From: Tridacna crocea
Taxonomy: Eukaryota; Mollusca; Bivalvia; Cardiida; Cardiidae
Reading direction: 5' to 3'
DNA: 64,000 nt
Assembly: GCA_943736015.1 (NCBI GenBank)
Contig: OX031065.1
Coordinates: 54,290,992-54,354,991 of the forward strand
Below the pieces are notes generated by a model, which saw nothing but the letters and a program-made list of their open reading frames with translations, was not told where the DNA came from and did no database searches. The number at the start of each line of letters is the position of its first letter. Positions within the stretch are counted from its first letter, which is position 1. This document shows positions 25,501-49,500 of this stretch, piece by piece. Both the position numbers and the translations under genes were made by a program.

Positions 25501-28500
25501 ATTTTCATTACAAAGAGATATGATAATTACCTCCCTTTTCTAGAAACTAACACAAGTATCGACAAATAATTTAAAGATAGACATCAAAGGCATTTCTTGT
25601 TGGTTAAAAATTTGCAAAGGTATTATATCTATAAATCTGTCTTTATCAACTGTCAAGAAATTTATGCCATGCTACACTAGAAGTGTTACGGGTCTACTAC
25701 CCTAAATGGTACAGAGTTAATCAGTATACAATTTACAAATAGTGTCTACAAAGGCTTTTAATATGGATGGAAAAAATTTGAGCCATGATTATGGATCCAT
25801 AGCAGCTACTCATGACTTTTTTCAATGACTGTCTTATGAGAAAGATTGGTCCTTTGACAAACAGAAAATAGACCAATAATAAGAAATTTTGGCCCAGGTC
25901 AGCCTGCCTATGTTTCACATCTTAGCAAGCCAAGGGTGATGATCCACTAGGCTATCTAAACACCCTTGGCAGATGGAGCTTGATTTCGACACTCCCATGA
26001 TACGCATAGCCATTGTCATTGGTTGAAGCTAGCTCTAATTGCACGTATCAAATCACTTGTAGCATTTCATCTTTGATAGAAATAGGACAGGGTTACACCC
26101 TTTCGAATAAAAATAGGATACCTCCATGGATGTGTGCAGGATCTGTATTGATTTATTACCGAAATAAACATAGACAAACAATATTTACAGAAAGTTTCAG
26201 TGTGACCAATCAATTATCGGAGGTTTTAGGCTATATTCCAGCACCTGACAATAGAATGTCGAAGTACATCTGTGGTTATTGCTTAATGTTGAATTCTTGA
26301 TGTGGTTTTTAAAATGATATTTCATAGGCTTTAAAAGATGTAAAAGAGAATAATGACCAGCATCTAATGGGGGCATATCTCAGAAATTTCCAAACTGGGC
26401 TTGATCTGCCATGGTAAGATCCAGGTAACTTGGCTTGGAAGATGCCTTTTCGGAGCACGGCTAATTTTTATACTACAGAATTGACTAACTGTTCGTATGT
26501 GTAGCAAATATAAGCGCCCCTTTTTTGCTTATGGTTCTTACACAGTTTTAAAGAAATCTGTTAACTGACCATTGAAAATAACAAAATGACCCAAACCGCA
26601 TGTATAGCAGATGTTTTCATAAGCCAGTTTTTTTTTTTTAAATATTGGGATAGTTATAGAAAAATCTTAAACTAAGAAAATTTTCATTAGTCTCAGTTCT
26701 CTTGCTACCTACCGCAATTGTCTAGATTCTTTTAACTCTTTACCACACAATCTCGACTTTTAAAGATCCTCAGAAGGCAAGCTTCTGAAAACATTGTGGG
26801 AAAAGGAGAAAATGCTGGTAACCAGCATTTTCTCCTTTTACCACAATGTTTTCTACCCTCCCAAAATCAAAATTCCATGTTCATTTCACATTTATTTTGT
26901 AGTTTGCAAGTGCTTTCTATTTAAACAAACCCAAAATGTTGTTGTTTGGTAAAGAGTTAAAACATGATATGGATGGTTTTACAACTACATGGTATTTATA
27001 TACACAAATTTCATAAACAAAGTGACAAAAATTAAATGACATGAGCTTTGATGAGTTTTGATGAGCGTCATATGTTTTCATCAGTATGGTGGGGACAACC
27101 ATAAAACATTAACACATTTGTGAGTTTCTACTGATCCTATAATGAACAACAGACAAAGGTAATGATATTTTGTCATTATGCCTTGTGCAGTTCTTTCATT
27201 ACATGTGCACTTAGATCAGACATGCGCACTTACCCTACAACTACATTAGTATGTATATCTAAACAAGAGGCAGTAGAGTGAAGAAAGTTTTTTGAAGAAA
27301 ATCAAAAACTTTGATGGGAGAGGTTTCATCTAAATAAATGTTCCATTTCATCAGGAATACTATTTACAGGAGAAGAAAAGTGAGATATAGAGTAAATGGA
27401 GAAAATGAGTATAAATCAGTGAATAAAAAATGTAAGTGACCCATTATCATACATATATATGGGTAATTTTCAAAAAAATGAAGTTTTTTTTCTTATTCAA
27501 GCTCAGCTGAATAGCGTTATACTTTTTAAGTTTAATTTTAGCCTAAATTATGTGTTATATTGGCTTAAACCATGATGCAAAGTTTCATGAAAATTGAAGC
27601 ATTCATTCTGAAGTAATGCCGTAAAATATACCCAAATTTGTCCCAAGTGCAAGTTTTAGTGTGACATTTGAAACGTTTTGTCATTTTCAAATTCTTTCCA
27701 AAAGGTACATGTTCCAGTATATCCAAAAACAAACCTTGGGGGTTAAATACTATTATGTAACTCAGAGTTTACAATATAATTTATGTGTTTTTTGTACTGT
27801 TTACCTGTTCTAGGATGGCAATTTATGACCACACCCCTAATAAAAAAACTTGAATGAAAATAACTTGTTTTGAATTTGAATGAATAATATTTCTCACATT
27901 ATTAGCGCCAGATCCATTGCATGTTGTTAATGACAAAGTATAATGTTGCTGGGTTAATTATCAGCTGTTATGTAGCTAGAGCTTTTACTAACATTTTAGA
28001 AATCAGCTTCTCTAATCTGTTACCAAGGTTTGTCCCAAGTGCAACATTTTGTAGTTTTGTTTCCACCATATAATCATACACTGTACAATATGTTATTTTG
28101 ATTTATTTTTCGGATCAGCAAGTCAGGGCAAAGCCATTTGAAGCAATCTTTTACATGCAGTGATGCATGGGCTTCCAACAGGTGGCCAAAACTGATGTCC
28201 CAAGTGCAACACAGTTTTCCATGTTTAATCAGTGCACTATAATTGTCTAACAATACACTTTAACTCCAATGTTATCATTTGTCATTTTTGTTAAAGCATA
28301 TATCTTTAAAATTAATACCTTTTTAATACTGTGAGTAACCATTTTTGCATAAATATTTGAAAATATATGTTTTTTTTGCTAATTGAAATGTTCAGAAGAG
28401 CTTTTTACAGAATGTGAACTTTTTAAGGCAATTATGTTTTCCTGCATTTATTACTTATTGAAAGCAAATGCTAAAACTTTCAAAACTTGAACTTAAACTG

Positions 28501-31500
28501 TCTACTTGTAGACATAAACAGTCATTTTCCAACCAACCTTAAAACGTTGCACTTGGGACACAACAATTGAGAAATGAATAGTGTAAATGCAAGAGCTATT
28601 TTTTTCAGAAACTGAATTATATGTAAAACAAATATGGTTAGATTTGTTATAAAACTACCATTTAAAGGGAAGTCTGGGCCACCTACTGGGGAAAAGGCAT
28701 CATCTAGGACAAGATCTGCAGCAGCTTTTACCGATAGATAAAGATAGCATAAAATAACTAGAATAAAAATCAGAGGTATTGATCAGAATCTGTATATTGT
28801 ACAATCTGTTCTATTCTATTGTTCTCACATCACGAAACCAGGTTTTGTCTTGGCATAGATAATTATCATATTATTTTTCTGGTGCTAAAATTATGTTAGT
28901 AAAATTGTTGCACTTGGGCCATAGTAATTCTTTATGTGTGCAATATGCAATACTTCACTTTTAATAAACTTGGAGACTTCAGATTTGAATTGAACATTAT
29001 TTTTTCTTAGAAAGCAATAAACAACAAGAAGAAACAATGATATTAACATCAAATTTTTTTGAAACCTTGGGAAAAAAAATCTTTTTTTTTAATGGTGCTA
29101 AAATCTATACAACTTTCATTTTGTTTTGAATTTACATTTATCAACTTAAATTTTAATGTTTAACATCACTGATTGTGGTTATAAGTTATCTCACAATGTG
29201 AAATTGGTATAAATCCTTTCGTGGTAGAAAAGAAAGCATGGGGCTGATTTTGTCCCAAGTGCAACATTTTGCATACATATGTACATCTGATAAAAACTTC
29301 ATTGAAAACCACCTTACCTTAGCTCAAAATGATTGAAACTTTTTGGTCTCAATTTTTTTTGTGGAAAAAACACTAGCTTACTGTAAGTATGATGTCCTAT
29401 AGCATCAATACTCTTATCATTACAGAAAATGCTTAATGTTCGTTAAAAGAAATTTGTTATTTTTGTAATTCTTTTTGTTCAAAATTCTTGATGTTTCTTA
29501 GTTCTGTGAAATAAAAATGGCACAGCAAATGCTAAAATAAGCAATATCTTGACACATTATTAGAAATCCACAAAAGAAGACTGTTTGTGTCCCAAGTGCA
29601 ACATCTTTGAAAAACAGACCATTTTTTATCGGCCCACTTCTACATGAAATAATGTTTCGATTAAAAAGAAATTGATAGGATGTTTCAAGAATGCCTTGAA
29701 ATTGATCAGAAAAAACTTATGAATAAATTGTTGAATAATTCAGCTGACTAGAAGAACTTTTGTAGGTAGAGAAAGTAATTTCAGTGACAAATTTAACAAA
29801 AAAAGGCAAAAAAAATTTTTTTTTCACAGAAACTATTCAAACCAGTGGCATAGAGTTGTGTCTTAATATACGTCTTGTCAAACAATACCAATATATTAAT
29901 TTAGAAATGTCTGAAATAAGTGTAATACTACTTATATGGTCTATACCATGTTTTAAAAATAAACAACAAATATTTCCTGAAATATACAAATTATATAACT
30001 TTGGATGTTTTCATACAGTGTTTAATGTTAATTCCTGACACTTTGACATCTTATGAAGAAACTGACATGAAAATTATTCAGCTCAATTGCCATTTAAATT
30101 TTGACCTCTATGTCACACTTTGACTTCATTTTTTTGAAAATCATCCTATATATAGGAAGGTTATAAATTGAGAAACTACACTGATCTTCTTTTGTGAATT
30201 GCATCATGGGAAAAGAAGCTGTTTTCTGGGTACTTGTTAAGCCCCATTATCTTAGAGCCATTTTACAAAACTGGTGATTTAGGGGATGCAAGTTCTACTA
30301 ACCTGGTTTAGCAAAATCTCTTTAGGATTGGTGAGTCATTGTGACCAGATCTATTTCTCTCTCTTTGTTCAACATTTTTTAAACTTTTAGCAATCAGGAG
30401 TAAGCAGCCGTAAGTTTAGCATAGGTACAAGTTTCAAGAATACATAAACAGGTTGCCTGGCTGCCTGACTATTTACTGTTAAACATGGCCTTATACTAAA
30501 CAAACAAGTGGCATATAATACAATACCTTGTCTGGCTTTCTCTCGGATAGATTCCTTGACTTCATTAGCCTTGTTCATCTGAGTTGGCTGGCTTGACACT
30601 TGTTTTATGGTCTAAGATAAAGGAATTATTTCATTGTAAATAATAAATTCTTTTAACTCTTTACCAGACGACAAAACTGAAAGCATTTGCAGATGACAAA
30701 ATAAATGTGTATCAAAAATTGAAATATGATTTGGAAAGGGTAGAAAACATTGTGGGAAAAGGAGAAAATGCTGGTTACCAGCATTTTCTCCTTTTCCCAC
30801 AATGTTTTCAAAGGTTTTCTTTCTTTCTCTGGGTCGTTAAAAGTCAGGATTGTGTGGTAAAGAGTTAAAACTATAAGATCATACAAACATAAACAAGTCA
30901 TATGGGTGGGCAGTATAATGTTTGGGTTGGGATGAAAAAAGTCACTTGAAATTCATTTTTTAATTCAAACACTGATTAGTTGAGACAGAATTTCTGATAC
31001 ACGTAAGGCTCATATATATGTATAGGACAAAATTTGATTACTTAATGCAAGCTCCACCCCCCCCCCCCCCCTTTATGTTCAGCCTTATGAGTATTGGATA
31101 ATAACTAAATGTAAGTCAGGTCTTTTAGTCCACTCTGTCCAGAGAAGTTCTTTGTGTTTATCTATCATACTCACAGATACACAGCTAGTTTTCCAGAATA
31201 AAATTACTGCAAATTACATGTTATTAAGTCTTAACCAAATTACAAAAGTTAACACTTGTCCAATCTGAAAGCATTTGCATACAATGAAATAAATGTGACT
31301 CAAAAATTGAAACCTGACGATAGAAGATTAGAAAACATTGTGGGAAAAGGAGAAAATGCTGCTTACCAGCATTTTCTCCTTTTCCCACAATATTTTCAGA
31401 AGGCATCTTCTTTTGGCTTGTAAAAACCAGGGATTGTTTGGTAAAGGTTTAAAATACCTCCTGGTCACTGCTACTCTCATCCCTCAAAATACCATTGTGA

Positions 31501-40500: not shown

Positions 40501-43500
40501 AGGGAAATAACTCAAAGACAGCACAAATTAGAGTTACAATTCTTGTGCACTGCACTTCCAAATATTGCACCAAATAATCATACCCAATTTCAAGTCATTC
40601 CTACTTAAGATGACAAAGTTTTGCTCCGGACAAGCAAGAAATGCTATGAAAATGAAGTTCAAAGGGGAATAACTCAAAATTCAAGCTAGAAGAAGTTATG
40701 GTTCTTGTGCACTGCACTCCATAAATATACAACGATGATGCATATCAAATTTGAAGATGTTCAGACTATAGATGACAAAGTTATATTCCAGACGAGCAGA
40801 AAATGCTGTAAAAATGACAATCAAAGGGAAATAACTTACAGACAGTATAAGGTAGAGTTATGGATCTTTCAGATTGCACTCTGCATTATTGCAACAAACA
40901 CAAATGTCAAGTTTCAAGTCAATCAGACTGGAGATGACAAAGTTATGCTCTGGATTAAGAACTATTATAAAGAACTTTCTAATTCAAGGGCAAATAACTC
41001 CAGTTGTTTGCATCCGATTACACCCATAATTCAACTCATCCAAGATCTTATGGTTATATTTGTATTGGCCAAGTTTACAGCTGATTGGTTAAAAATTGTA
41101 GATGCTAGAGTGTAAACAAAGTGCAGTATAGCAATTTTTCTAATTCAAGGGCAAATAACTCCAGTCATTCTGGTCAGATTAGACCCATAATCAAACTCAT
41201 CGGAGATCTTATGATCATATATACTTTGACCAAGTTTGGTCCTGATTGGTTGATATTTGTAGATGCTAGAGTGTAAACAAAGTGAAATACTGCAATTTTT
41301 CCAATTCAAGGGCAAATAACTCCAGATGTTCTGGTCCAATAAGACCCAAAATCGAACTCGTCCGAGATCTTATGGTCATATATACTTTGACCAAGTTTGG
41401 TGCTGATTGGTTGATATTTGTAGATGCTAGAGTGTAAACAAAGTGAAATACAGCAATTTTTCTAATTCAAGGGCAAATAACTCCAGATGTTCTAGTCCGA
41501 TAAGACCCAAAATCGAACTCATCCAAGATCTTATGGTCATATATACTTTGACCAAGTTTGGTGCTGATTGGTTGATATTTGTAGATGCTAGAGTGTAAAC
41601 AAAGTGAAATACAGCAATTTTTCTAATTCAAGGGCAAATAACTCTAGACGTTCTGGTCCGATTAGACCCAAACTCAAACTCATCCGAGATCTTAGGGTCA
41701 TATATACTTTGACCGAGTTTGGTCCTGATTGGTTGATATTTGTAGATGCTAGAGTGTAAACAAAGTGAAATACAGCAATTTTTCTAATTCAAGGGCAAAT
41801 AACTCCAGACATTCTGGTCCGATTAGACCCAAAATCAAACTCATCCGAGATCTTATGGTCATATATACTTTGACCAAGTTTGGTCCTGATTGGTTGATAT
41901 TTGTAGATGCTAGAGTGTAAACAAAGTGAAATACAGCAATTTTTCTAATTCAAGGGCAAATAACTCCAGAAGTTCTGGTCCGATTAGACCCAAAATCGAA
42001 CTCATCCGAGATCTTATAATCATATATACTTTGACCAAGTTTGGTGCTGATTGGTTGATATTTGTAGATGCTAGAGTGTAAACAAAGTGAAATACAGCAA
42101 TTTTTCTAATTCAAGGGCAAATAACTCCAGAAGTTCTGGTCCGATTAGACCCAAAATCGAACTCATCTGAGATCTTATGGTCATATATACTTTGACCAAG
42201 TTTGGTCCTGATTGGTTGATATTTGTAGATGCTAGAGTGTAAACAAGAAAATGTGAACGGACGGACGGACGACGGACGGACGACGGACGCCGACGGACGG
42301 TGAGTGATCACAATAGCTCACTCTGAGCACTTCGTGCTCAGGTGAGCTAAAAAAGATGGGTGGCACAGTTACAAATTTTGTGAATTGCTGTTCTCCACAA
42401 GGTGTTCTATCAGTCTTGAAAGGTTTAAATAAGATCATAGCTTTTATATTTTAGAAATTATGGCCCTGTCGAAAATTCAAAGAGAAAACTAACAAAGGGC
42501 AATAACTAAAAAAGAAGGATGGCAGAGTTATGGTTCTTATGCAGTGCACTTCTTCATAATGTGTTCTTTTAGTCTTTGAAGTTTCAAGATGATAGGTTTT
42601 AAAGTTTGGGAGTTATGGCCTGGACAAAAATTCAAACTGAAAATTAACAAAGGGCAATAACTAAAAAAATAAAGGTTGCAGAGTTATGGTTCATGTGCAC
42701 TGCACTTCTCCATAATGGGTTCTATCAGTGTATGAAGTTCCAAGTTATTAGCTTTTACAGTTTGGAAGTTATGGCCTGGACAAAAATTCAAACTGAAAAT
42801 TAACGAAGGGCAATAACTCAAAAAATAAAAGTGGCACAGTTATGGTTCATGTGCGATGCACTTTTCCACAATGTGTTCTATCAGTGTATGAAGTTCCAAG
42901 TTAATAGCTTTTATAGTTTAGAAGTTATGGCCTGGACAAAAATTCAAACTGAAAATTAACAAACGGGTAAGACACAATATAGGGAACAGTAGTGTTGCAC
43001 TTGGGGGTGAAAAATGAAAGTCCCTAAATTCACAAAAGAAGTAGTTTTTCATTTAGTACTATGCTTTAAGTTCAAGAAACCAAAATATCTTGTAGATTGC
43101 TGCGCACGAAATACATTTTTTGTTAGCAGACAAATTGACCTTCTAGAGCTTGTTACGGACACTACACAGGGATATAACATCAATAAAATACTTGAAATTA
43201 TGTTTTTCTTTTTTTTTTATGTCATACAGTTCAAATTTCCTCATATTTTTAACTGGTATAAAACAAAAAATACAACCCAAAATGATAATTACATCTCATA
43301 ATCCTTACAAGAAATCTTGCAAAAAATATTGCTGAAAAATTGCCATGTTTCAACCCTGCTCAAAAATAAAGTTCTCACCTTTAGACACTATTATTACACA
43401 AAACTTGAAGTTTAACTTATAATCAACATACAGAAATAAAAAAAGTTTTATCAGACTCTGTCTATATCAATTCAAATATTGAAAACGAAAAAGCTGTAAA

Positions 43501-46500
43501 TTTGGTTACGGACTCTACATGAATATGACAAAGGCAAATCTGTCTATTATCTTGAAATTTGCATTGAACTGTGCTTATTTCAATACTTTATGATGTAATT
43601 TATGATTTAATTAAAAAAAATCCCTGTATATCAGTAATTTTTGCGAATACAAATATGAACAATGCAGAAAAAAGAAATGAACTCTTTGACAACAGTTACT
43701 GTTTTCGTATGAATGATATCATATGTTCTCATATACCTATTTCTGTAGGAATAAACATGAAAACTATTAGTAAAGGTTCTTTTTTTGGGCACATGATAGT
43801 TCTAATATAGATAAAAATCTGTTCATGGTCTAGTTACAGACACTACGCTTTTTCCTTTAATGGAAATAAACATATTTATAGTCTTTCATCAACTTTTTGG
43901 AAATGTCTGTTATTTCTTTGGGCTCAAAAACGAAGTGTAAAATGTTCAATTTCACCTCCCGCCTCTGTATCAAGTGGGAAAGTTGTCAGCGAATGGAAAG
44001 AAGGTTGTGTAAGTACTGGTGTGAGTAAGCCAGGAAAACATGGGATGCACTGACTGCCGTGATATAACATAGATGTTGAAAGGGGCATTAAACTCCAATC
44101 AACCAGCAAATGAACACCAGACAAAGTAAGTAAAATAGAACATTTCGAGTGCAAAACTGTTGTAACTCAAAACCAATCTAACAACCCAAGTTTAGGGGCA
44201 CAACTGACTCCTTTATAGGGGTTATAAGATGTTTTCTTCAGTAAACAATGTAAATTTAGGTGCCATTGCTCATCATGAGCAATGGCACCTAAATTTACAT
44301 TGTTTATTAAGGAGTCAAATTTTCCTCTAAACTTGGGTGTTTAAAATGGGTTTTTAATTACAATAGTTTTGCACTTAGCCCTCGATTTGTAGGCGTCAAA
44401 ATTATGTTTGTGTTAAACAGTATATTGTAATTGATTTTGGCCTTAACTCATTACCACACGAGAAAATTTTAGACTGGTCCAAATTGAAAGCATTTGCAGA
44501 CGAAAAAATAAAGGTGACTGAAACATAGAAATTTGTTCTGAAAAGGGTAGAAAACACTGTGGGAAAAGGAGAAAATGCTGGTTACCAGCATTTTCTCCTT
44601 TTCCCACTGTTTTCAAAAGGCTTCTTTCTCAGGGGCATCAAAATCAGGGATTGAGTGGTAATGGGTTAAAGTAAGTTTCAACGTCTGGCTTGTAAGTGTT
44701 ATCAAAATCAATTAAAGAGGCAATAATACTCATTTTAAGCCAGTTTTAACTCATTTTTATACGCCCGTCGAAGACGGGACGTATTATGGGATCACCCGTG
44801 ACGGGCGGGCGGGCGGGCGGCGTCCAGTTCTTTGTCCGGAGCATATCTCCAAAACTATTCTACCTAGGGTTATGAAATTTCATGGGTGGATAGATCTCAT
44901 CAAGGGGGAGTGCAGTGCACAGGAACCATAACTCTTGCTTGCTTAATTTTTGAGTTATTGCCCTTTGTCGTTTTTCATACTTGAATTTTGTCCGGAGCAT
45001 ATCTCCAAAACTATACTACCTAGGGTTATGAAATTTCTTGGGTGGATAGATCTCACCAAGGGGGAGTGCAGTGCCCAGGAACCATAACTCTTGCTTGCTT
45101 AATTTTTGAGTTATTGCCCTTTGTCGTTTTTCATACTTGAATTTTGTCCGGAGCATATCTCCAAAACTATACTAGCTAGGGTTATGAAATTTCTTGGGTG
45201 AATAGATCTCACTAAGGGCGAGTGCAGTGCACAGGAACCATAACTCTTGCTTGCTTAATTTTTGAGTTATTGCCCTTTGTCGTTTTTCATACTTGATTTT
45301 TGTCCGGAGCATATCTCCAAAACTATACTAGCTAGGGTTATGAAATTTCATATGTGGATAGATCTCATCAAGGGAGAGTGCAGTGCATAAGAACCATAAC
45401 TCTTACTTGCTTAATTTTTGAGTTATTGCCCTTTGTCTTTTTTCATACTTGATTTTTGTCCGGAGCATATCTCCAAAACTATACTAGCTAGGGTTATGAA
45501 ATTTCTTGGGTGAATAGATCTCACTAAGGGGGAGTGCAGTGCCCAGGAACCATAACTCTTGCTTGCTTAATTTTTGAGTTATTGCCCTTTGTCCTTTTTT
45601 CATACTTGAATTTTGTCCGGTGAATATATCCAAAACTTTACTACCTAGGGTTATGAAATTTCATGGGTGGATAGATCTTATCAAGGGGGAGTGCAGTGCA
45701 CAGAAATCATAACTCTTGCTTGCTTAATTTTTTAGTTATTGCCCTTTGTCGTTTTTCATACTTGAATTTTGTCCGGTGAATATCTCCAAAACTATACTAG
45801 CTAGGGTTATGAAATTTCATATGTGGATAGATCTCATCAAGGGAGAGTGCAGTGCATAAGAACCATAACTCTTGCTTGCTTAATTTTTGAGTTATTGCCC
45901 TTTGTTGTTTTTCATACTTAATTTTTGTCCGGAGCATATCTCCAAAACTATACTAGCTAGGGTTATGAAATTTCATGGGTGGATAGATCTCATCAAGGGG
46001 GAATGCAATGCATAGAAATCATAACTCTTGCTTGCTTAGTTTTTTAGTTATTGCCCTTTGTTGTTTTTCATACTTGATTTTTGTCTGGTGAATATCTCCA
46101 AAACTATACTAGCTAGGGTTATGAAATTTCATGGGTGGATAGATCTCATCAAGGGGGAGTGCAGTGCGCAGGAAGCATAACTCTTGCTCGCTTAATTTTT
46201 CAGTTACTGCCCTTTGTCGTTTTTCATACTTGAATTTAGTCTGGTGCATGCCCCAGCTTTACAACTTGGGGTAAGACGGGCGTATCTTGCGACAGTTTGC
46301 CGCTCTTTTTTTTTTTATCAAAATATAGTCATTCTTATATATCTATGCCAAATATTGCGCCTGACGGTTGCAAGGTTGCTTAGATTACGCCTGATAGAAA
46401 ATGCATTTCGCGGACTAGTGGCCTTCAATGTAGACAGACTGGTTGTTTCCGGATTTTGAATCGAAGATTTTCGATATCCGTTATACACTCGGGTAGATTG

Positions 46501-49500
46501 GTATGATGATCATGCATTCTGTAATGTGACTATATTTTACCTTGGCCTTGATGCGGTAAATAAAGGAAAATGGATGTTTCTCTGTTGCAGCCTCTAGTTT
46601 TGGACGGAGATCGAGGCCTATATGTAAGTTACACCGTATCCGACTCTGGGCGGAAACCAACGATAAATTTCCGTGAGTCACCGCCATTGTTTACAGCTTC
46701 GATCGTCAGCCAGTTTTCTTCTGGCCAATTTTCGGTTTTTCACACAAACCCCCGTGTTTCTTTTTTCATTTACACGATATATGTCAGTAATTTATCCTTG
46801 TATACACAAAGGACAGATTTCTGTACCATTCTATTTTTCTTTTCGAAATTAACAGCGTTTCTGATCACTGGCTGTAGATAGGCATCTTTAACAAAAGCTA
46901 TGTTATTGTTATTTCTGTGTAACTTAATGTCAAAATATTTGATATATACTATGTATTAAATCATGTAGTGTCCGTAACTTTCACACCATTCTTTATTATG
47001 ATCTGTGTAAAGAACATGTTCTGGTATTTTATTTGGAATTGTATCCTGTCTGAATAATGGATATTTAAGCTTTGGAAATATGTCTGCCTTTAAGTTACTG
47101 ACGCTTATAAAATACTGCAATTATATCTCGATGAATGATATTAAGGGAGAAAACTACCATTTCAACAAAATGTATCTTGAAAATACAAATTGTGCCAATA
47201 AAGCTTTTTCAATTAGTAATGTTACCTGCAGAATGTAAAAGACAGCTAAATTTTGTTTTTTTTGTGCAGCAAAAGTATAATTTTAGTTTTATAATAATTT
47301 GGTTACGGACACTACACAATTATTGGTAAAGAAAGATGGGAAATAAACTTAACCTTTATTAACTTATTAGCTGGAAAACTTTGGTGTTTTCTAATGTTGG
47401 AACCATATTAAGCTGATAAAACAAACTGATTTATAATGAATCATTTGAATAGATTTTCTATGACTAAACTATTTACAGTGATGCCACAGTGGAAAAAATG
47501 GTGTTTATAGATATGATGCAATCAAGGAGATTTACTGTATTACATCACCAATCATGATCCTCAAAATATACAAGGGATGCTATATTTGATGAAAATAATA
47601 CATTAGAACATAATTTGTGATTTTAAGTGAGGTAAAAAAATTGAGGAAAACTGGGGTTTTTTTTAAGGTTACGGACACTACACATTTTTTGTAAAGTCCG
47701 TAACCATTAAAGTTGGTTAACCGCTTTGTCTTAGGGGAAAGATGTTGTCGAATGTATTTACTGAAATCTGTGTAGGTCATGAGTGAATAATGAATTGTTG
47801 TGAAGTATCTTTAGAGACTTATATCCACTGAATTTTACATGGTTACGGACTCTACTATTTTTCTGAATAGGCATTTTGTACATTTGAAAAAATCATGAAA
47901 ATTTTTTTTTGTTACTAACACTTCCAAATGCTTTTCCATGTTGATCAACCTTATCATAGTTGTAATTCTATAACAAAAAGTACTTAAAAAAGTTGTATTA
48001 AGAAGGTTTTTTCATCCTATAACAAACAAGAGATATTCAAGATTAAATTTGCATAACATGCTACTACATTTACAGTTTTCGTCATATTTTTCATGTTCTT
48101 TAACCAATTTTAACAAATCAAACATCAAATTAATCCTTGATAATTTTACTAACTGTTGAATATACCTAATGAGCACTTACCAGAATATTTAACAAGTAGT
48201 ACAAATTGAAAAAAGAGTGAATTTCTAAGTGCAACAACATAATGCAAAAAAAGCACCATTTTGGGGGTATGTTTCATGTTATATCTCGGAGGCCTTTTGA
48301 TCTTAGGTGCTCAAATTTTGGCTGAGACTTGAACATACACTAACAAATGATTACACATAGGTTTCACTGATGTAGGACTGGTGTAAATATAAAATAACTT
48401 GACATAACAACCAATTTTTTCAAATGATCCCTATATTGTGTCTTACCCGAAAGGGCTGTAACTCAAAAAATAACAGTGGCAGAGTTATAGTTCATGTGCA
48501 CTGCACTTCTCCATAATGTGTTCTATCAGTGTATGAAGTTGCAAGTTATTAGCTTTTATACTTTGGAAGTTATGGCCTGAACAAAAATTCAAACTGAAAA
48601 TTAACAAAGGGCAATAACTCAAAAAATAAAAGTGGCAGAGTTATGTTTCATGTGCACTGCACTTCTCCATAATGTGTTCTATCAGCGTATGTAGTTTCAA
48701 TTTGATACCTTTTATGGTATGGAAATTATGGCCTGAACAAAAATTCAAAGTGAAAAGTTGGTTATTTCAGAAATCAAGGGCAGATAATTTTGGAACGCAA
48801 ACAGCAATCCAAATTCTAAGACCCAGGTGCACAACTAGACATCATGGAGATTCATTGTGGCAAGTTTCAAATAATTCCGATGAAAACTGTAGGAGGAGTT
48901 GCACACACAAGAAATTGCTAACGGACGGACGGACAGACGACCGGGGGTATAACATAATACGACCCTTCGGGCGTATAATAAAAAGGAGAAAATGCTGGTT
49001 ACAAACATTTTCTCCTTTTCCCACAATGTTTTCTAAAGGCTTCTTTCTCAGGAGTGTCAAAAGTAGGGATTGTGTGGTAATGGGTTAAACTAACACCATA
49101 CTACAATCAAACAAATCATAAAAGATTTAAACAAACTGAAACAATGTTAAACTTTTTTTTACTACATCCGAAATATTTTAGAAAGGTCTTTTTTTTAAAC
49201 TCTTTACCGCACAACAAAATTTTAGACCTGTCCAGATTGAAAGCATTTGCAGACAACAAAATAAATGTGACTGAGAAATTGAAACTTGTTTTGAAAAAGG
49301 TAGAAAACATTGTGGGAAAAAGGAGAAAATGCTGGTTACCAGCATTTCTCCTTTTCCCACAGTGTTTTTAATAGGCTTCTTTCTCAGGGTCATTAAAATT
49401 GTGATTGTGTGGTAATTACCAAATGACAAAATTTTAGGTTTGTCCAAATCGAAAGCATTTGCAGACGACAAAACAAAAGTGACTGAAAATTTGAATTTTT

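Follow-up and report, generated by a model that had tools for sequence, protein, structure and literature searches.

Multi-site recognition in described transposons

Recognition of several DNA sites by a transposon protein is already known from VANDAL, Hermes and Galileo elements. In the VANDAL/VANC system of Arabidopsis, motifs multiply in dense, fast-changing tandem repeats (PMC5735166, PMC10398659). Hermes, a hAT element, carries AAGT sites near both ends, five of them in the first 55 bp of each end, which are bound by the N-terminal BED domains of the transposase (PMC10368747). Galileo, of the P superfamily, shows an 18-bp THAP footprint near its end plus two sites in a 1.2-kb terminal inverted repeat (TIR), and higher-order multimers have been suggested (PMC3688188). 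The present analysis concerns two TIR transposons, termed families A and B, found in a 64,000-nucleotide stretch of Tridacna crocea DNA (contig OX031065.1, positions 54,290,992 to 54,354,991; hereafter the window), together with related lineages elsewhere in the genome. At a rough probability of 0.5, the short sites that these elements carry would be cis-acting sites at which a protein of the element assembles the two ends, the geometry of the array being needed for mobilisation.

As far as the sources cited describe them, VANDAL elements resemble those studied here in that a short motif is repeated in the non-coding DNA of one family and differs from one related family to the next, and variants of it build up within a subfamily. 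However, the VANDAL motifs form dense tandem repeats, whereas here a few sites lie at fixed distances in non-repetitive DNA. No VANC-like protein was found. Multiple short sites near both ends are shared with Hermes, but in Hermes the sites crowd in 55 bp and at least about 220 bp per end are needed, while here they reach 1.2–1.5 kb inward. Galileo also has several sites per end, although its further sites lie in long direct repeats of long TIRs; here the sites are isolated and the TIRs about 22 bp long. No description of a fixed-distance array spanning more than 1 kb per end, with concerted drift of its motif, was found in the literature searched (titles and abstract openings). Transposase binding has mostly been studied within a few hundred bp of transposon ends.

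Family B and the related lineages C, D and E

Family B is represented in the window by a non-autonomous element at 27461..30146 (+) with TIR GGGTAATTTTCAAAAAAATGAAG. Its motif, TGTCCCAAGTGCAAC, was matched nine times in the window (1.83 expected), and seven of these matches, with at most one mismatch each, are the sites of the element: site 1 at 27639..27653 (+), 179 bp from the left end; site 2 at 28031..28045 (+); site 3 at 28196..28210 (+), 165 bp beyond site 2; site 4 at 28546..28560 (−), with a start codon 88 bp beyond it; site 5 at 28907..28921 (−); site 6 at 29251..29265 (+), 883 bp from the right end; and site 7 at 29588..29602 (+), 547 bp from it. Besides the window copy, 17 others were read, three of which lie inside one larger repeat. 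The alignment of B copies left out L032, L033, L034, L036 and L041 (diverged or lacking one end), and that of A copies left out L020. In the gene-less B consensus all seven sites are identical. In a k-mer hunt through the window, the B motif came out with regular steps and with flanks that look random (identity 0.28), while the remaining recurring sets had flank identities of 0.30–0.42 and irregular steps; since the script missed the A motif, the test is incomplete. At L034 (C4:59487500), L036 (C5:28735000) and L041 (C8:13674000), a truncated B copy lies in a repeat of 6.4 kb or more that is 99.9% identical among the three places and is a larger, very recent repeated unit.

One locus picked up by a single exact B motif, L032, turned out to belong to a separate lineage, C, its six remaining sites being TGTCCCAAGTGTAAC. 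A further lineage, D, with the motif TGTCACAAGTGTAAC, was found nested in L048, a locus fetched as a long A copy, in which the general k-mer script then flagged the insertion; the fetching of L048 was independent of the D motif, which was counted in favour of the end-assembly reading. The TIRs of C and D resemble that of B. Exact matches in the genome numbered 136 for B, 166 for C and 181 for D, compared with 0, 0 and 8 for reversed-pattern controls, while nine matches (control 0) came from the four neighbouring sequences that have G or T at position 5. Position analyses cover the 100 places listed for each motif, of which 99 (B), 95 (C) and 90 (D) lay in clusters of three or more. The motif types are thus discrete and lineage-specific and shift in concert, as they do in VANDAL/VANC-type systems. 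Six of the nine position-5 variants were TGTCTCAAGTGTAAC, three of them followed on the same strand, some 326–356 bp on, by GTCNCAAGTG (control 0); these TGTCTCAAGTGTAAC/GTCNCAAGTG pairs form a sparse lineage, E. In an animal genome, concerted shifts of this kind offer a natural record of the possible co-evolution between a DNA-binding protein and its many sites.

A CAAGTG core is common to B, C and D, whereas the core of A is quite different. We take the CAAGTG core to resemble NK-2 homeodomain sites, and this, with the nucleosome-scale spacing, would suit a host transcription or chromatin protein that, by binding there, renders the ends accessible or allows their expression, the elements keeping its site. 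Such a host factor is nevertheless distinctly unlikely, as concerted, lineage-specific changes outside the core, and the different core of A, fit a co-evolving protein of the element better.

Distances between sites are conserved while the spacers have diverged

Measured from the left end, the first four sites of B, C and D lie at 179/179/179, 572/574/571, 737/739/736 and 1088/1102/1088 bp, the last being on the reverse strand in all three lineages. From the right end, sites lie at 547/546/548 and 883/889/892 bp, with a further one at 1227 (B) and 1226 (C) on opposite strands. In each lineage the first 1.1 kb contains four sites and the last 1.2 kb two or three. The sequence-only reading had described a step of about 350 bp with one half-step. 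There is no single period; what is kept is a set of specific distances, 179, 393, 165 and 351 bp at one end and 547 and 336–344 bp at the other. Over the places listed, the 165-bp step measured 164.8 bp in B (standard deviation (SD) 0.4, n = 13) and 164.8 bp in C (SD 0.5, n = 13), and was exactly 165 bp in 23 of 23 cases in D. When sites were placed at random, none of 200000 trials matched all six D sites to B, the best matching four. Among the other copies in the genome, neither a loss of motif conservation nor random spacing was seen.

The DNA between the sites behaves differently. Ungapped identity of the spacers among B, C and D was 0.35–0.37 overall, compared with the 0.27–0.31 expected; it was higher in the outermost spacer (0.41–0.55) and near chance in the spacer before site 4. 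This weak residual identity indicates that B, C and D share ancestry and that their spacers are close to saturated. Among B copies, net length change per substitution was 0.67 bp squared (108 segment-copies), an estimate that ignores large insertions because four of the 112 segment-copy rows, with net changes above 30 bp, were dropped. At 0.7–1.5 substitutions per site, a divergence assumed from the identities, for lineages that are not independent, it predicts a neutral SD of the length difference of 8–24 bp. The differences observed among the lineages, segment by segment, were 0, 0, 0; 2, 1, 3; 0, 0, 0; 12, 1, 11; 1, 1, 2; and 7, 8, 1 bp, so that four of the six segments differ by 0–3 bp, well under the predicted drift. 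Motif and spacing are hence conserved among B, C and D while the intervening DNA is nearly erased, which suggests a protein that holds a fixed geometry. At the level of sequence, the comparison of lineages points to selection on the identity of the sites and on their distances across more than 1 kb per end, in gene-less copies.

Simple inertia, in which the sites are left over from a common ancestor and the spacing survives unselected because insertions and deletions are rare in master copies, appears improbable. The residual homology of the spacers (alignment scores lie between 0.7 SD under and 6.6 SD over those of shuffled sequence) does attest to shared ancestry, but the motifs remain intact, or change together, while the spacers near saturation, and the length differences predicted from drift among B copies exceed those found in four of the six segments. 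A description as satellite-like had also been offered by the sequence-only reading, and steps near 165 and 350 bp might indeed recall remnants of a tandem satellite with units of about 175 or 350 bp. Single spacer pairs do reach alignment z scores of 5.2 (C) and 3.6 (B). The mean z between the spacers of one element, however, lies between −0.34 and 0.66 in the four lineages A–D (for A, the inverted site at 745 bp and the B-type cores described below were left out of the site list). Spacers within an element being dissimilar on average, neither the tandem units of a satellite nor those of a CENP-B-box-like array were recognised, and a satellite origin is highly improbable.

Family A and its probable kinship with B, C and D

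The window copy of family A, a non-autonomous element at 42964..48449 with TIR CGGGTAAGACACAATATAGGGA, reads on the (−) strand in the orientation that fits the plan of B, C and D. Its motif, GGTTACGGACACTACAC, was matched eight times in the 64 kb at up to three mismatches, always within the element (chance expectation 0.05). From the left end, sites lie at 43151..43167 (+), about 187 bp in and without counterpart in B, C and D; at 43504..43520 (+), about 540 bp in (546–548 bp from the right end in B, C and D); and at 43832..43848 (+), about 867 bp in (883–892 bp). From the right end, they lie at 47841..47857 (+), about 593 bp in (571–574 bp from the left end in B, C and D); at 47667..47683 (+), about 767 bp in (736–739 bp); at 47301..47317 (+), about 1133 bp in (1088–1102 bp, in the opposite orientation); and at 46963..46979 (−), about 1470 bp in (1449 bp in B). 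The remaining site, 47689..47705 (−), at 745 bp, forms an inverted pair with that at 47667. It is the only site that the sequence-only reading had overlooked; all others, in A as in B, are where it had put them, coordinates and steps agreeing within 1–2 bp. Its report that A has the B-motif core close to either end was borne out as well: the A consensus holds an exact 13-mer at position 29 (−), just inside the left TIR (CCCAAGTGCAACA, 42994..43008 (−) in the window), and, 212 bp from the right end, a match at 11 of 13 positions.

Genome-wide, 40 scored places matched A, the window included, and its TIR gave 115 + 129 matches at up to three mismatches, compared with 6 + 5 for a reversed control. 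Both TIRs were present in all 20 A copies read, which were 3.58–4.14 kb long, except for one of 5.11 kb; site positions were alike among them, save that the third site (43832 in the window) was missing in five. A target site duplication (TSD) of 3 bp was found at 17 of the 20 loci (L012 and L013 share flanks) and around the window copy (AAA at 42961–42963 and 48450–48452); the TSDs include CTT, TTT, AAT, TCT, AGT and TAG. For B and C, 13 of the 15 loci with both ends found had a 4-bp TSD (ATAT, TAAA, ATCT, GAAT, ATAC, ATGT and one TTAA). The failures were L042 and the window copy, where the TSD is ambiguous, the flanks being a TA run. The one D copy has CTAT. The start GGGTAA, noted earlier as shared by A and B, is indeed present in both TIRs; it is all that they have in common, and the TSDs differ (3 bp in A, 4 bp in B and C).

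Reading A backwards and allowing 45 bp, six of its seven sites match B by position alone (P = 0.029 under a period-keeping null, 0.0024 under a uniform one), and five of seven by position and orientation (0.007 and 0.0006). At 25 bp, four of seven match, with values of 0.074 and 0.017 without orientation and of 0.007 and 0.001 with it. The plan used was drawn up after the data had been seen, and the comparison excludes the 745(−) site and the B-type cores. Written as TGTAGTGTCCGTAAC, the A motif has the ends TGT...GTAAC in common with C and D; 8 of 15 motif bases are shared. On this evidence kinship of A with B, C and D is probable. That A is unrelated, having converged on a similar array or resembling it by chance, is the less likely reading: its motif core and TSD length differ, it has extra sites (187 bp from one end, and 745 bp on the other strand), the plan is matched only to within about 45 bp, with a period-keeping null as high as 0.074 in one setting, and the exact A motif occurs in no other lineage (five matches, four of them beside listed A places). 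The fit of five sites in position and orientation and the shared motif ends argue against this. The proposal that lineages diverge in motif but keep their spacing thus holds for B, C and D, while for A it relies on the rougher match of architecture and on the 8 of 15 motif bases. An A-like sequence in L039 and L040, TGTAGTGATCGTAAC, proved to be part of another repeat.

A proposed role of the arrays in end assembly

In the scheme favoured here, a cut-and-paste-type TIR group (B, C, D, the sparse E and probably A) carries arrays of a 15-bp site in the non-coding DNA flanking a gene. A DNA-binding protein encoded by the element, possibly the N-terminal part of its transposase, would recognise the site, and several bound copies would bring both ends into one complex, the geometry of which would be set by the distances. 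Steps of about 165 bp (one-step) and about 340–395 bp (two-step) may reflect a nucleosome-like scale. Since gene-less copies retain the sites, we infer that the sites act on propagation in cis; such copies would then spread only if sites and distances were kept. The preference of the protein would drift, the sites of a lineage would follow, and lineages would cease to recognise each other. More tentatively, mobility might depend on a long-range DNA ruler, with sites 1.2–1.5 kb into each end, distances mostly kept and recognition drifting in concert. If so, a transposition (or anti-silencing) complex would be organised on the nucleosome scale. Long-range geometry in eukaryotic transposition or anti-silencing becomes testable with small constructs.

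The sites might instead serve anti-silencing, a protein of the element relieving its own lineage of silencing by the host, as VANC does for Arabidopsis VANDAL elements. The location of the sites in non-coding DNA on both sides of the gene start would agree with this. However, VANC motifs are described as dense and set in expanding and contracting tandem repeats, while here there are 6–8 sites and no tandem units, and the distances are mostly kept to within a few bp, a precision that recruitment by itself would not demand. Because fixed distances point to a complex with geometry more than to simple recruitment, end assembly is preferred, and anti-silencing is considered somewhat unlikely.

Several observations weigh against end assembly. 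Known transposase sites mostly lie within about 200 bp of the ends. The looser segments are the distance from site 3 to site 4 (351/363/352 bp) and that between the last two right-hand sites (336/343/344 bp). The C and D sequences come from one copy each, although their steps were position-checked in many copies; the first D site has two mismatches and the D site 892 bp from the right end has one. Half of the six E-type matches to TGTCTCAAGTGTAAC had no downstream neighbour, and none had an upstream one. Substitution in A motifs (1.04%) was not significantly lower than elsewhere (1.69%; 700 of 5000 random sets were as low); that in B motifs was significantly lower (1.4% compared with 3.7%; 20 of 5000), but among copies selected by exact motif match. 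The loss of one site from five of the 20 A copies means that not each site is indispensable. The gene remnants and the open C18 frame described below gave no credible Pfam match; a large public protein set yielded 22 and 2 candidates for the remnant queries, none at E ≤ 1; and neither a binding protein nor a transposase was identified among the remnants and the one open relative. Finally, the requirement of Hermes is about 220 bp, and the paper on it states in a section heading that auxiliary transposases are unlikely to bind inside its ends (PMC10368747).

Gene remnants and coding candidates

Beyond site 4, a start codon followed by a similar peptide lies at 88, 88 and 85 bp in B, C and D. 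This remnant gene start, at 28634..28672 (+) in the window, reads MVRLVIKLPFKGK in the B consensus, MRKLVVKLPFRGK in C and MNFRLVVKLQYKGK in D; several codon differences among the three are synonymous. Neither A nor B showed a transposase frame. In L029 and L042 the longer B centres appear to be nested repeats, and they were set aside as coding candidates; in these two loci, different repeats have gone in at or close to the same TTTAA, shortly past the B gene start.

D holds a longer, broken remnant. A six-frame search of the genome with it gave 90 matches, a single one of them stop-free (C18:115331-115663; 39% identity over 111 residues, E = 1.2e-16). This relative has an open 123-amino-acid (aa) frame (about C18:115322-115660), which stops soon after, perhaps through an insertion, an intron or decay. 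A search with it gave in turn 49 matches, the two stop-free ones being itself and L052 (C7:38946685), which has an open 106-aa frame with similarity over just 58 residues. An E-type pair (C18:125214 and 125558) lies 10 kb downstream of the C18 open frame on the same strand, with the right-hand step of 344 bp seen in D. The probability of this proximity by chance is about 2 in 10,000 (one locus within 10 kb, nine variant matches in 1.05 Gb), as reckoned after the fact. The stretch of some 12 kb at about C18:114–126 kb is the best candidate for a coding member. The search that the sequence-only reading had proposed, for autonomous relatives with a recognisable transposase, returned none.

Other candidates were dismissed. 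L047 and L048 were considered as autonomous A copies, but no open frame in their insertions is long (at most 133 and 103 aa), and the insertion in L048 is D. In an odd C-type cluster (C10:16470464-16479526), an intact 546-aa frame (L049 1946-3586 (−)) lies between C-type motif sites and appears to resemble a piggyBac transposase. One TTAA-CCC end but no second end was found, and the frame was taken as a separate insertion. At positions 2050–2364 of the A consensus (about 46570–46880 in the window) there is a 105-aa open frame (MDVSLLQPLFLDGDRGLY..., MDVSLLQP...) with a GTAAGT donor-like site. It gave no credible Pfam match, and might be a captured exon or the first exon of A itself.

Superfamily comparisons and nested insertions

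TIRs together with short TSDs, as expected of Class II transposons, were found in A and in B and C. In hAT elements the TSD is 8 bp. PIF/Harbinger elements duplicate a 3-bp TWA target, a pattern to which the A TSDs do not conform, and the varied B and C TSDs, with their one TTAA, do not show the TTAA specificity of Kolobok. Academ elements are abundant in bivalves (PMC10294476), and AcademX has TSDs of 3 or 4 bp (PMC10045372), a range that accommodates both A and the B/C/D lineages; no Academ protein was seen among the sequences recovered, which include no full coding relative and for which no Academ profile was tried. KolobokP elements, described as bivalve-rich, have long terminal direct repeats round an internal region, and solo repeats with 3–4 or 4–5 bp TSDs (PMC9587614). 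B, C and D resemble them in having termini that start with a purine and end with a pyrimidine, and in their short TSDs, whereas A mostly begins with C. No long terminal direct repeats were found on comparing B, the one family examined in this respect, with its copies, extra matches being at most 37 bp.

The window copy of A carries, at about 44750–46300, a nested element with ACGCCCGTC/GACGGGCGT-like ends and with tandem units of about 155 bp, some 9–10 by visual count. It sits at an A/T run and is not in the A consensus; as it occupies this interval, the A element's own length is about 3.93 kb. Long, near-perfect inverted repeats at 44190–44330 and 44545–44620 in A read like nested fold-back miniature inverted-repeat transposable elements.

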